From a virus, in the IMG/VR virus record IMGVR_UViG_3300042558_004148, positions 62,001-126,000 of that record: a DNA stretch of 64,000 nt, one strand, 5' to 3'. Below the pieces are notes generated by a model. That model saw only the letters and a list, made by a program, of their open reading frames with translations, had not been told where the DNA came from and ran no database searches. The position numbers were made by a program, and so were the translations under genes. Below, piece after piece: positions 55,785 to 64,000 of the stretch (its first letter is position 1; each line of letters starts with the position of its first letter).

Positions 55785-56021
55785 ATGAAGACATTCACAG
55801 ATCTAAAAAAGATTAACGAAATGAAATACGGTCAGCCACTTTACAGTGAAAAAGACCACATGAAGAACTTATTAGTTGCAGCTTCTGGTAACGACCAGAG
55901 AGTTTTAAACGATATTGTTGATTGTTTAACAGAGGATCAGATGAAGAAGTGCTTCGATAAACTTTCCAAAGTTTATAATTATACAGGTAGCACTGGACAG
56001 AAGATCGCTCCTAGTATATAA
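55785..56021 (+). CDS. Small hypothetical protein
   Basis: A 78-residue protein beginning MKTFTDLKKINEMKYG, followed by KDHMKNLLVAASGNDQRVLN and a predicted helical C-terminal half. The start recalls the 'M-K-x-F' N-termini of other proteins in the window, but no real CTS-type cleavage pattern is clear. No enzyme motif or membrane segment. It precedes the RuvC-like gene by three bases and is probably co-transcribed with it. Confidence 0.6.
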   Translation: MKTFTDLKKINEMKYGQPLYSEKDHMKNLLVAASGNDQRVLNDIVDCLTEDQMKKCFDKLSKVYNYTGSTGQKIAPSI

Positions 56022-56024
56022 TAT

Positions 56025-56732
56025 ATGAATTTAGTCGGAATAGACTTTTCTATAAACTCCCCCGCTTTCTGTTGTTTGGTTGATGGCAAATACACCTGGG
56101 GATCTATAACAAGATCAGATAGAAGTGAGGAATCCCTTTCTAAGAACATCAAGAAACCATATCACATATTAAGTTGTGATGATGCTTTCAAATTGATATT
56201 CTTAGAAAAAAAGGATCTTCCCGAAAATTATTCGGAAAGAGAAAGAATTAAGATAACCTATTTCTTAGATATAGTTGATACCCTATGGAAATCTATAATA
56301 TCTATAATGGGAAAAGAACCATTCCATGTTGCAATGGAGGGTTTAAGTTTTTCGTCTAATGGTAATTCGCTAATTGATATTTCAATGGCAACTGCACTGT
56401 TAAGGGAAAGAATAATTAATGATATTGGCGTTGATAACTTTCATGTATTCTCACCAACATCAATTAAAAAATATGCGGTAAAGGGAAATGCTAAGAAGGA
56501 CGAACTTTACCATGCGTTATGTAATTATATCGAGGATGAAACAAATTTATTCATCTTCTCTAGAATACTAGAAAGCAATAAGGAAGAATGGATAACCGGT
56601 AAAAAGGTTGTTAATAAACCAATCGACGATATTGTTGACGCAACTTGGATTAATTTATATTTAAAGGAAGAATTAAAGGAATTTTATGGAATTAAAGGAA
56701 ATATTAAAAACGCATCTACAGGAAGCCTCTAG
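56025..56732 (+). CDS. RuvC-like Holliday junction nuclease
   Basis: A 235-residue protein with the RNase H-like fold of RuvC-type resolvases. It has Asp7 in NLVGIDFSINSP, Glu105 in HVAMEGLSFS, an Ala/Leu helix ATALLRERI, and the acidic C-terminal motif DDIVDATW (residues 201-208, Asp201/202 and Asp205). These are the catalytic acidic residues expected for metal-dependent cutting. T4 uses endonuclease VII (gp49) for this task; a RuvC-type enzyme is an alternative solution in many other phages. It would resolve branched DNA before packaging. Its last 47 bases overlap the next gene. Confidence 0.8.
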   Translation: MNLVGIDFSINSPAFCCLVDGKYTWGSITRSDRSEESLSKNIKKPYHILSCDDAFKLIFLEKKDLPENYSERERIKITYFLDIVDTLWKSIISIMGKEPFHVAMEGLSFSSNGNSLIDISMATALLRERIINDIGVDNFHVFSPTSIKKYAVKGNAKKDELYHALCNYIEDETNLFIFSRILESNKEEWITGKKVVNKPIDDIVDATWINLYLKEELKEFYGIKGNIKNASTGSL

Positions 56733-57285
56733 CATTCTAAATGACTTCATTAATAACGACGAGTATCTAAACTCCGTAACAGAGGCAGCCGAAACAATCA
56801 TCACATCATTAAGTAACGGTAATAAAATAATTTCTGCAGGAAATGGCGGGTCCATGTGCGATGCTATGCATTTTGCAGAGGAACTTAGCGGGAGGTATCG
56901 TGAGAACAGGGAAGCTTTAGCCGCTGTTTCCATATCTGATCCTAGTCACATAACTTGTGTTGGAAATGATTATGGCTTCGACCAGATTTTTTCTAGATAT
57001 ATTGAAGCTGTTGGAAACGAAGGCGACGTATTTTTCGGTATAACAACTTCAGGAAATTCTAATAATATCACTCGTGCTCTGGTTACTGCCAAGAGAATGG
57101 GGATGAAGGTTGTCATACTCACATCAGACCGCCCAGAAAGCGACGTAAGAATGCTTTTTAGCCACCTTATCGATAATATCATACTAACACCAGTAAATAA
57201 ATATGCGGATCGTACGCAAGAACTACATATCAAAATAATACATTCCCTGATTGATATGATAGAGCGCCAATTGGGAATGAAATAA
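56686..57285 (+). CDS. gmhA: Phosphoheptose isomerase-like SIS-domain protein
   Basis: A 199-residue SIS-fold protein of the sedoheptulose-7-phosphate isomerase (GmhA) type, which makes D-glycero-D-manno-heptose 7-phosphate for LPS core or other heptose sugars. Family features are AGNGGSMCDAMHFAEELSGR (residues 51-70), with His62 and Glu65/66; ITTSGNSNNITRAL; and a C-terminal TQELHIKIIHSLIDMIE with Gln178 and His181. These match the zinc-binding and catalytic set of GmhA. The length is standard (about 190-200). The gene starts inside the RuvC-like gene. Why a phage carries it is open: modifying surface sugar, or supplying heptose to a glycosyltransferase such as the one at 26224. Confidence 0.9.
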   Translation: MELKEILKTHLQEASSILNDFINNDEYLNSVTEAAETIITSLSNGNKIISAGNGGSMCDAMHFAEELSGRYRENREALAAVSISDPSHITCVGNDYGFDQIFSRYIEAVGNEGDVFFGITTSGNSNNITRALVTAKRMGMKVVILTSDRPESDVRMLFSHLIDNIILTPVNKYADRTQELHIKIIHSLIDMIERQLGMK

Positions 57286-61739: not shown

Positions 61740-62291
61740 ATGATAATGAAATCATTTACTGAATTTACTAACAATGTATCCGAAGCTAGCTCCGAGGGCA
61801 GCACAGGGAAGACTACATTTAGTAGATGGCTTAGAGATATGAACACGAGAGTTGGTGATGATATGAAGGATTCTAATTACTATTCTAGTTATTATGATTC
61901 TGATGACAAATATCAAGCTGCAAGAAGAGCAACCAACCTAATTCCTAATGTATTTAGATTAATTACCGGAGCTGGAGCTGCTGTTGCAGATTTCTTAACA
62001 CCTAAAGGATCAAGTAAAGAGGAGAAAAGTTCAAATAAGTTTACTAAGGACGAACTAAAAGCTAAAAAGACTGAAATCCTTAATAAATGGGAAAGGGATA
62101 ATATTGGTGATAAAAAAGTTACCGATGCTGATGCTGAAAAGTTCTATAAATCTGGAGTGATCAAGGGTAAAAAATACTTCGGGAAGGATTTTGATCCAGC
62201 AAACCCTAAGAATAAGGAAGAGGAAATGTACGCCGATTATATGAATGGTATAATGGAGAGGTATTATAAAAAGACAAGCAATGCACAATAA
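61740..62291 (+). CDS. Small protein with FxxF...VSEA N-terminus
   Basis: A 183-residue protein starting MIMKSFTEFTNNVSEASSEG (a second ATG two codons in, at 61746, is equally plausible). The N-terminus has Lys-x-F-x-x-F and a VSEA site. The rest is Lys/Asp/Ser-rich and mostly helical, with a hydrophobic stretch around FRLITGAGAAVADFL (about residues 77-91) that might be a weak membrane segment. It is not recognised. The N-terminal pattern resembles the T4 capsid-targeting sequence (MKTYQEFIAEA), which directs internal proteins to the prohead and is cut after Glu. It overlaps the next gene by 11 bases. Confidence 0.6.
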   Translation: MIMKSFTEFTNNVSEASSEGSTGKTTFSRWLRDMNTRVGDDMKDSNYYSSYYDSDDKYQAARRATNLIPNVFRLITGAGAAVADFLTPKGSSKEEKSSNKFTKDELKAKKTEILNKWERDNIGDKKVTDADAEKFYKSGVIKGKKYFGKDFDPANPKNKEEEMYADYMNGIMERYYKKTSNAQ

Positions 62292-63204
62292 AACGCTATC
62301 ATTTAATAACTTTGTAATTTTATTAGAGGGTGGTGCCGCTATTAAAACATCTAGAAGAATAAGGGAGGATGAGTTTGAAGAAACACTAGCCTCAATAAAG
62401 AGCATATTGTTGCCGATTATTGGTGTAAATCCCAATTCATCTGCTGGTGAATACATCGTTATTGGAAGCATAGGGAAAAAGAAAAATCCAGATGATACAT
62501 CGGGTGATCTTGATCTTGGACTTGATTCTAATTTATTCAATGTGCCACTAAAGGAGGTATCTGGATATATTTATTCGATATTAAGTGGATCGGAAGAGCT
62601 AACAAGCAAATTGGGATTCGAACCTGAAATAAATTATTTGAAGGGACTAAATATAGTAAGTATAGGATGGCCTATAAACGGTGATCAAACTAACGGAATT
62701 GTACAGCTTGATTTAATACCCGTTGCTGATATGGAATGGGCAAAGTTTATCTACTATTCACCTGACTACAAAACATCTGAAAGTAAATATAAATCAGCTC
62801 ATAGAAACTGGTTACTTGCTGCTATATTAGCAATACGTAGAATGGTATTGGATGTTAACGATGCTGGAGAAGTTATGGATTATGATTCACCTGTGCTGAT
62901 ATTAAGCGATGGTTTATATTGGCATACTAAATCATACAGAGGCAAACTAAAACCTAGATTAAAGAATGCTGCCAAGATAAGCGGAAGCGAGAGATTTATA
63001 ACTAGAGATCCTCAGGAATTTATAGACTTTGCATTGGGTACAGGTTATTCAATCAATGACGTTAAAACATTCGAAAAGTTATACCAGATTATAGATTCAC
63101 CTAGTTTTGAACTTTATGATAAGGTTGGCGAAATAGAGGAAAAGTTCCTCGAATATATTACTAGAGCAAATTTAGAGAGGCCCTCCGAAATAAAAAGAGC
63201 TTAA
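62281..63204 (+). CDS. Nucleotidyltransferase-fold protein
   Basis: A 307-residue protein with the polymerase-beta-type nucleotidyltransferase signature. GS at 62-63 (VIGSIGKKKNP) is followed by two Asp in GDLDLGLD (Asp76 and Asp78) and a third acidic residue in VQLDLIPV (Asp144). These bind the catalytic metals. The C-terminal half is helical (RNWLLAAILAIRRMVLDV, IDFALGTGYSINDV). It would transfer an NMP to a substrate that cannot be named. The N-terminus (MHNKTLSFNNFVILLEGGAA) has FxxF-V-x-LLEG, reminiscent of a capsid-targeting peptide. It is next to a ligase-family gene. Confidence 0.75.
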   Translation: MHNKTLSFNNFVILLEGGAAIKTSRRIREDEFEETLASIKSILLPIIGVNPNSSAGEYIVIGSIGKKKNPDDTSGDLDLGLDSNLFNVPLKEVSGYIYSILSGSEELTSKLGFEPEINYLKGLNIVSIGWPINGDQTNGIVQLDLIPVADMEWAKFIYYSPDYKTSESKYKSAHRNWLLAAILAIRRMVLDVNDAGEVMDYDSPVLILSDGLYWHTKSYRGKLKPRLKNAAKISGSERFITRDPQEFIDFALGTGYSINDVKTFEKLYQIIDSPSFELYDKVGEIEEKFLEYITRANLERPSEIKRA

Positions 63205-63240: not shown

Positions 63241-64000
63241 ATGTCTGGAATTAGCCACTTATATGATATTTACCATAAGAAAGGAAAAGAGTTTATTGAT
63301 AATCTCTTTAGTACTTATGTAACTGTTAATGAAAAAATGGATGGATCTGCTTTTGTTTTCGAAAGAGATGCTAACGATGGTAAATTTGTATTCTATAAGA
63401 GAGATCAGAGAAATCCGATAACAATGGTTGATAGAACCCTTATGAAATATTATGAGAAGCCTATCCAGTATATAGAATCTTTGAGTCCACACACAATAAG
63501 TAAAATCCCAAGAGGATGGAAATTTGGATTGGAATATTTTGCTAATAATAAGCCAGTCGAGATTGCTTACGATAGAATGCCAAAGAATAATCTTATATTG
63601 TCTTACGTTAGTCCTAAGGACTCTAAGCCTTCCAATAATTTTATAAATGACAAGGAGAAATTAGATACCTGGGCAGATCTTTTAGGAGTTGAGAGACCCC
63701 CGATTATTTTTCAAGGATATCTTAGTGAGGATCAGAAAGAAAAAATATCAGATTTTCTACGAACACCATTCGATGATTTGGTATCTGAGTATAAGACTAA
63801 GAGTTTTGTTAGGTATATCATAGGTGTACTAAATCCGGAAGCCAAGGAAAGCGCATTAAACGACGACCTTGATAAGGCCATAGAAGGAATAGTTTTTAAG
63901 TTTGGTGACGAGAAAGGTGAAGGTGAGACTGTTGTGTCAAAGATGGTAGATCCAGTATTTACCGAAATGGCAAAAAATAAAACCAAATTAAAGATTGAAA
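63241..64000 (+). CDS. RNA/DNA ligase-family nucleotidyltransferase, 3' end outside window
   Basis: An open frame from ATG 63241 to the window edge (at least 253 residues). Motif I is EKMDG at 31-35 with the nucleophilic Lys32. RGWKFGLEYF (91-100) fits motif III, and EGIVFKFG (215-222) fits motif IV; the remaining C-terminal sequence cannot be assigned. Together these define the covalent nucleotidyltransferase superfamily (ATP-dependent ligases and capping enzymes). RNA ligase is the best guess because the catalytic domain is short and no DNA-ligase extensions are visible. A TATAAATA sequence at 63210-63217 lies 24 bases before the start. The pairing with a nucleotidyltransferase suggests end repair. 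Confidence 0.75.
   Translation, partial: MSGISHLYDIYHKKGKEFIDNLFSTYVTVNEKMDGSAFVFERDANDGKFVFYKRDQRNPITMVDRTLMKYYEKPIQYIESLSPHTISKIPRGWKFGLEYFANNKPVEIAYDRMPKNNLILSYVSPKDSKPSNNFINDKEKLDTWADLLGVERPPIIFQGYLSEDQKEKISDFLRTPFDDLVSEYKTKSFVRYIIGVLNPEAKESALNDDLDKAIEGIVFKFGDEKGEGETVVSKMVDPVFTEMAKNKTKLKIE

Follow-up and report, generated by a model that had tools for sequence, protein, structure and literature searches.

Genes and N-terminal peptides of the window

The DNA analysed here (the window, 64,000 nucleotides) covers positions 62001-126000 of a 373,485-base virus record, designated G000, about 45% of which was examined, as stretches. Near its 3' end, the window encodes a small basic protein, a nucleotidyltransferase (NTase) and an RNA ligase, and the first two of these, together with a protein encoded at position 2016, start with a short peptide, or tag, resembling the capsid-targeting sequence (CTS) of bacteriophage T4. 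In the three proteins (at 61746, 62281 and 2016), an N-terminal F-x-x-F is followed by hydrophobic-x-E. The corresponding features are given below in window coordinates, with a slash marking the predicted cut.

61746-61784, + strand: tag MKSFTEFTNNVSE of the protein of open reading frame (ORF) 61740, predicted cut VSE/A; F4 and F7 unchanged across an alignment of 18 orthologues; IPI-like
61785-62291, + strand: predicted mature 61740 protein, 168 aa, 19 kDa, isoelectric point (pI) 9.1
62281-62328, + strand: tag MHNKTLSFNNFVILLE of the NTase, predicted cut LLE/GG; F8, F11, E16, G17 and G18 invariant in 18 orthologues
62329-63204, + strand: predicted mature NTase, 291 aa, 32.7 kDa, N-terminus GGAAIK
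63241-64000, + strand: untagged RNA ligase adjoining the NTase and running on to G000:127322 (693 aa); PF09414 at E = 7e-6, just under the cut-off; KMDGS motif
2016-2060, + strand: tag MRHRVVKFSQFNLSE of the 2016 protein, predicted cut LSE/S; pattern kept in 9/9 orthologues
2061-2951, + strand: predicted mature 2016 protein, 296 aa, pI 4.5

The shared F-x-x-F with a V/L-x-E or L-S-E end, described in the initial annotation, is present in all three N-termini. As for the residues quoted there, those of ORF 61740 agree with the translation (MIMKSFTEFTNNVSE/ASS, with MIMKSFTEFTNNVSEASS as opening residues), and for the two other proteins later in-frame residues had been quoted, a minor difference: ORF 62281 reads MHNKTLSFNNFVILLE/GGAAIK (longer N-terminal reading, MHNKTLSFNNFVILLEGGAAIK) and ORF 2016 reads MRHRVVKFSQFNLSE/SDTS (longer N-terminal reading, MRHRVVKFSQFNLSESDTS). 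ORF 61740 opens with MIM, and the MKSF at 61746 is its probable start.

According to the mutational map of the T4 CTS, MKTYQEFIAE (Mullaney and Black, as relayed in PMC9026906), targeting depends on residues 4 and 7 (Tyr and Phe) and processing on residues 8 and 10 (Ile and Glu). The tag pattern of the window proteins is made of the same determinants, i.e. two aromatics three apart, then hydrophobic-x-Glu. The start of the 61740 protein (MKSFTEFT...VSE/A) matches that of T4 IPI (MKTFKEFT...ITE/A) at six of the first eight residues, and its mature part is small and basic, as T4 internal proteins are. Its structure model displays no reliable fold (mean pLDDT 58.6). An assignment of the 61740 protein as a CdiA-type tRNase was rejected, the Pfam match (E = 0.014) being under the cut-off and limited to 3 of 18 orthologues.

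Conservation of the tag and comparison with chance

Relatives were fetched by means of the NTase (mostly 55-91% identity), and the form of the rule applied to their proteins was slightly wider than in the chance test described below. All 22 distinct orthologues of the 61740 protein, whose median identity is 44%, have the pattern, as do the 22 distinct orthologues of the NTase and 18 of the 19 orthologues of a protein encoded at G000:127285 (FGQFVSNMNE/SDGFGTSPF). These three tagged families thus display it in 62/63 cases vs. only 5/186 for the orthologues of ten neighbouring untagged genes, and this conservation is decisive for the pattern being real. In the NTase alignment the residues lying between the invariant positions vary, and one relative (L023) has a two-residue deletion in the tag, with an altered spacing. 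The 2016 protein keeps F-x-x-[FY]..[IL]xE in its nine orthologues at approximately 30-37% identity, and the pattern is also kept in orthologues of a second NTase (G47401), an adenylate kinase (G142406) and an SLT protein (G206988). The residue after the predicted cut is A, G or S in the 61740, NTase, 2016, 127285 and 55817 proteins.

For the chance test, the rule was fixed beforehand from the T4 map (near the start, an aromatic, two residues, an aromatic, at most 10 residues, then hydrophobic-x-Glu); one start per gene (first ATG) was used, and the expectation was derived from internal stretches of the proteins tested. In G000:16-143 kb, 12 of 112 genes fit the rule vs. 3.2 expected (p = 9e-5), and for 150 kb taken from LR756501, a 735-kb phage, the figures were 23 of 185 first-ATG genes vs. 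6.9 (p = 5e-7). In T4 (62-112 kb), seven of 61 genes fit vs. 1.1 expected and IPI, IPII and IPIII were recovered; approximately four of these seven matches, i.e. about half, are probably false, so that a lone match to the rule proves little. No gene of phage lambda (0/60) and two of 35 in T7 fit. A looser regular expression combined with any start codon gave no significant excess (21 genes vs. approximately 17 expected), and a DNA pattern for MKxFxxF, too insensitive a probe, gave four matches over the whole genome vs. two in the control.

Prohead protease and head locus

The gp21-type prohead protease for which the initial annotation suggested searching the rest of the genome, and whose absence would have refuted its proposal, is present: a predicted S77 protease, above the Pfam cut-off, is encoded outside the window at G000:50884-52854. 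It matches the PHROG head maturation protease at E = 5e-37, and an S77 protease was found in 11 of 12 relatives. Within this 656-aa protein, the protease domain is confined to approximately residues 30-145, and the remainder possibly represents a fused scaffold.

A gp23-type capsid protein (PF07068, E = 2e-40) adjoins the protease, and its site HSLNE/SAG is identical across every relative read. Two further proteins of the head locus keep comparable sites: [VI]NE/G in the 54668 protein, amid diverged surroundings, and F-x-x-W-x-x-[LI]NE/A in the 55817 protein. Since the capsid protein and the next two proteins carry hydrophobic-x-E sites, the tags end in the same site as that of the head proteins. 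Elsewhere in the record (G000:134423-134872; L035:9424-9873), a 149-aa protein possesses a segment resembling the cleavage region and N-arm of the capsid protein; over approximately 50 residues, the relatives are 37-58% identical.

The tag on unrelated proteins

The tag is genome-wide and not limited to the three proteins first noticed, since it also occurs in G000 on the second NTase, the adenylate kinase, the SLT transglycosylase and head-core or head-locus proteins. In the adenylate kinase, a 26-residue extension precedes the Pfam domain, which begins at residue 27. CHAP hydrolases, which only some relatives possess, are tagged in three of them. Carried by unrelated folds, the tag is modular at the sequence level. 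A Pfam search of the tagged proteins 309038 and 207720 and of those of LR756501 returned mostly no family. In the tagged set of LR756501, several proteins are alike after the tag, and one is a 544-aa NTase fusion.

Two other features of the window belong to this series:

1-256, + strand: 3' portion of a gene that begins at G000:61594; its tag LDQFKSNAISLDE is upstream of the window
55785-55820, + strand: N-terminus MKTFTDLKKINE/M of a 78-aa protein, resembling a degenerate tag; orthologues keep MK[TK][FY]xxLxx[LIVM]NE

The assignment at 55785 is less certain, the second aromatic being replaced by Leu and the P1' residue being Met. A SIS-domain protein (window 56686-57285; PF13580, E = 2e-21), which matches a PHROG family of unknown function, has the N-terminus MELKEILKTHLQEASS, also ending in LQE/A.

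The nucleotidyltransferase, its homologues and its neighbours

On its sequence and model, the NTase qualifies as a pol-beta superfamily nucleotidyltransferase with intact catalytic residues: G62 S63, D76 x D78 and D144 (GS...DxD...D) are invariant in the alignment, and the palm of the AlphaFold2 model (pLDDT of about 50 over residues 1-20, 81 overall) is PolX/pol-beta-like (VIA-align Z 9.6). Foldseek against viral models (BFVD) matched a protein of Agrobacterium phage Atu_ph07 at E = 3.5e-15. Comparison with PHROGs and PDB sequences gave no usable match, and no Pfam-A family was reached at E ≤ 0.1, a search in which no dedicated RlaP profile was compared.

Untagged remote homologues of the NTase are found in Lak phages, Atu_ph07, Sinorhizobium phage Phosso and Pseudomonas phage PA5oct, the PA5oct match being a remote one (E = 5e-10, obtained after intermediate homologues had been added to the profile). 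All of them start with M-[GS]-G-x-A-[FI], exactly after the predicted cut E16/GGAAI, so that cleavage would restore the usual N-terminus of the family. By this comparison of sequences, the tag is an add-on to the family.

The NTase family adjoins an RNA ligase in the G000 clade, Atu_ph07 and Phosso, and lies at most three genes away from one in PA5oct, where the ligase was assigned by its K-x-DG motif alone. In jumbo phages, RNA ligases occur alongside pol-beta NTases (RlaP), whose proposed role is to put back lost nucleotides ahead of ligation (PMC7824862). Given the pol-beta fold, the intact catalytic residues and the conserved RNA-ligase neighbour, joint action with the ligase in repairing RNA ends is tentatively put forward as the most likely role of the NTase. 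Upstream of the tagged pair, an insertion resembling an intein or a homing endonuclease splits the helicase gene of some relatives (L013:1623-4412, L026:1625-4392, L021:2067-2852 and L022:2078-2848).

Concerning the location of the family, the PA5oct homologue (QCG76112.1, EST35_0231) is annotated as a 'structural protein' with the note 'ESI-MS/MS'. Around it, 10 of 13 coding sequences (CDS) bear this note vs. 5 of 67 in another 40 kb (20-60 kb). The Atu_ph07 homologue (AUZ94877.1) is, by count, gp65, inside the cluster of CDS 31-76, 29 proteins of which were found in virions; this figure, from PMC6102473, is for the cluster and not for gp65 individually. These data provide independent, partial evidence that the NTase family rides in virions. 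Because both homologues are untagged, they bear on the location of the family and not on the function of the tag.

Interpretation and alternative explanations

The N-terminal peptides are very probably prohead propeptides of the T4 capsid-targeting type. This idea of the initial annotation is supported by the conservation among orthologues, the match to the mapped CTS residues and the S77 protease. The two aromatics three apart would bind the prohead core, and the tagged protein would be enclosed when the shell forms. The S77 prohead protease would then cut after the Glu of [LIVMF]-x-E, as it would the capsid and core proteins with the same site, and the mature NTase, starting with GGAAIK, would stay with the DNA in the head. 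Its presence inside the head is considered quite likely, and its injection at infection fairly likely. Once injected, the NTase might, together with the RNA ligase, repair RNA ends, e.g. those of tRNAs cut by host defence nucleases. Taken as a whole, the explanation combining CTS-type tags, S77 cleavage, an NTase carried with the DNA and RNA repair is regarded as probable.

Several observations weigh against this explanation. The excess of rule matches is not significant in G000:190-210/290-310 kb (4 vs. 2.4 expected) or in LR756504 (4 vs. 2.2). The residue after the cut is R in the adenylate kinase and the second NTase and M in the 55785 protein, whereas the T4 sites seen here have a small residue. 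The PA5oct homologue is untagged and yet virion-listed, so that the tag would not be the sole route and is not put to the test by the PA5oct data. Foldseek of the NTase model against the PDB gave no match at E ≤ 0.001. As the neighbouring RNA ligase is untagged, it would not accompany the NTase, its partner in repair. Lastly, the clade is uncultured and known here from sequence alone.

The peptides could also be propeptides of prohead core (scaffold) proteins, serving head assembly and being degraded or retained, rather than marking cargo delivered to the host. The tagged 55817, 56700 and 54668 proteins do lie in the head locus beside the protease and the capsid protein, and gp21 of T4 cuts the core proteins gp22, gp67 and gp68 into pieces (PMC5694885; PMC9026906). 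However, the adenylate kinase, SLT and CHAP proteins and the two NTases have recognisable enzyme domains and are implausible scaffolds, and the cut would leave the NTase domain whole, with an N-terminus as in its free-standing relatives, which makes a scaffold origin improbable. An uncleaved tag directing proteins elsewhere (infection compartment, membrane or tail) would suit those tagged proteins that are peptidoglycan hydrolases, which could act from the tail; it is rated as very unlikely, the tag ending in hydrophobic-x-E as at the capsid-protein site, an S77 protease being present in 11/12 relatives and the peptide fitting both mapped halves of the T4 CTS. Chance or a generic N-terminal composition, to which the non-significant looser expression and the roughly one-half false matches in T4 could point, is hardly credible in view of the 62/63 vs. 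5/186 orthologues and of the 2016 family, which keeps the pattern at approximately 30-37% identity; it is refuted for the three families tested, and is possible for single matches without orthologues.

As for the activity of the NTase, the initial annotation suggested that it would be an Alt-like host-modifying effector. Injected phage enzymes such as Alt can modify host targets (PMC9026906), and MenT3/TglT toxins are among the weak Foldseek matches, so that an effector or a toxin (e.g. a MenT-like NTase) might be considered in place of an RNA-repair enzyme. The MenT matches, however, have probabilities of 0.15-0.47 and TM ≤ 0.2, vs. a Z of 9.6 for PolX/pol-beta, and the RNA-ligase neighbour recurs in four phage groups, with RlaP as a precedent (PMC7824862). 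The NTase is of the pol-beta type (GS..DxD..D) and does not have an ADP-ribosyltransferase fold, and its ligase neighbour fits RNA repair better than modification of the host RNA polymerase; the Alt-like proposal is therefore not retained, and an effector or toxin role is judged unlikely.

The mechanism itself is already that of T4. What appears new is the range of tagged enzymes, the presence of the tag in a clade whose records reach 434 kb and the fact that cleavage would exactly regenerate an N-terminus; the tag is apparently also present in the 735-kb phage LR756501. No account of CTS-like tags in huge phages was found in the literature, in a search outside which most subscription journals lay. 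Whether several huge-phage lineages, LR756501 included, load dozens of enzymes into the head via an interchangeable, protease-removed tag, so that a kit for RNA repair, nucleotide metabolism and wall penetration would enter with the DNA, is regarded as evenly balanced. Most proteins of huge phages are without a known role. From the sequence, a readable tag would single out those that ride in the head and probably enter the host by injection ahead of phage gene expression, the stage of early counter-defence. Mature N-termini are also predicted to the residue, which proteomics can check.

Comparison with known systems

Other N-terminal peptides were observed in two of the phage groups with NTase homologues. 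In Lak-B6 (MK250025) and Lak-A1 (MK250016; L119-L138), a different shared peptide, KKxLYESIMKSVSKxVKKKLNE, ending in [LI]NE, sits on several otherwise different ORFs, at 7-12 places per genome; it is possibly a second type of prohead propeptide. No tags of the F-x-x-F type were found in a 36-kb Lak stretch. Atu_ph07 (L145, 41844-50592) has an array of about nine proteins starting with M[RK]WxQL[TN]E, most of which contain a 'YRGM' motif that by eye looks ADP-ribosyltransferase-like. They may be packaged enzymes of the Alt kind, carrying a very short tag.

The G000 system shares with T4 (IPI, IPII, IPIII and Alt, with gp21) the N-terminal aromatics at i and i+3 followed by hydrophobic-x-E, the S77 protease, the gp23-type capsid protein and a basic 19-kDa cargo (the 61740 protein) beginning with MKSFTEFT where IPI has MKTFKEFT. 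It differs by its many more tagged proteins, metabolic and repair enzymes included, by a protease domain set in a 656-aa protein (vs. 212 aa for T4 gp21) and by a cargo unrelated to the IPs or Alt; the T4 system has been worked on at the bench, whereas that of G000 comes from sequence.

In the giant phages phiKZ, 201phi2-1 and SPN3US, a prohead protease likewise cuts many head proteins after Glu and cargo is ejected (PMC9026906; PMC5694885). Their propeptides are mostly much longer (several exceed 100 residues) and have A-X-E or S-X-E sites, whereas the G000 tags have 9-20 residues, an aromatic pair and hydrophobic-x-E. PA5oct EST35_0231 and Atu_ph07 gp65 are remote homologues of the NTase domain located near RNA ligases, and the PA5oct one was detected in virions, but both are untagged and start at the residue after the predicted G000 cut. 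Finally, RlaP is, like the G000 protein, a pol-beta NTase adjoining an RNA ligase; it is not described as packaged in the passages of PMC7824862 consulted, and the G000 NTase, which matched no Pfam family, is likened to it by fold and neighbourhood.
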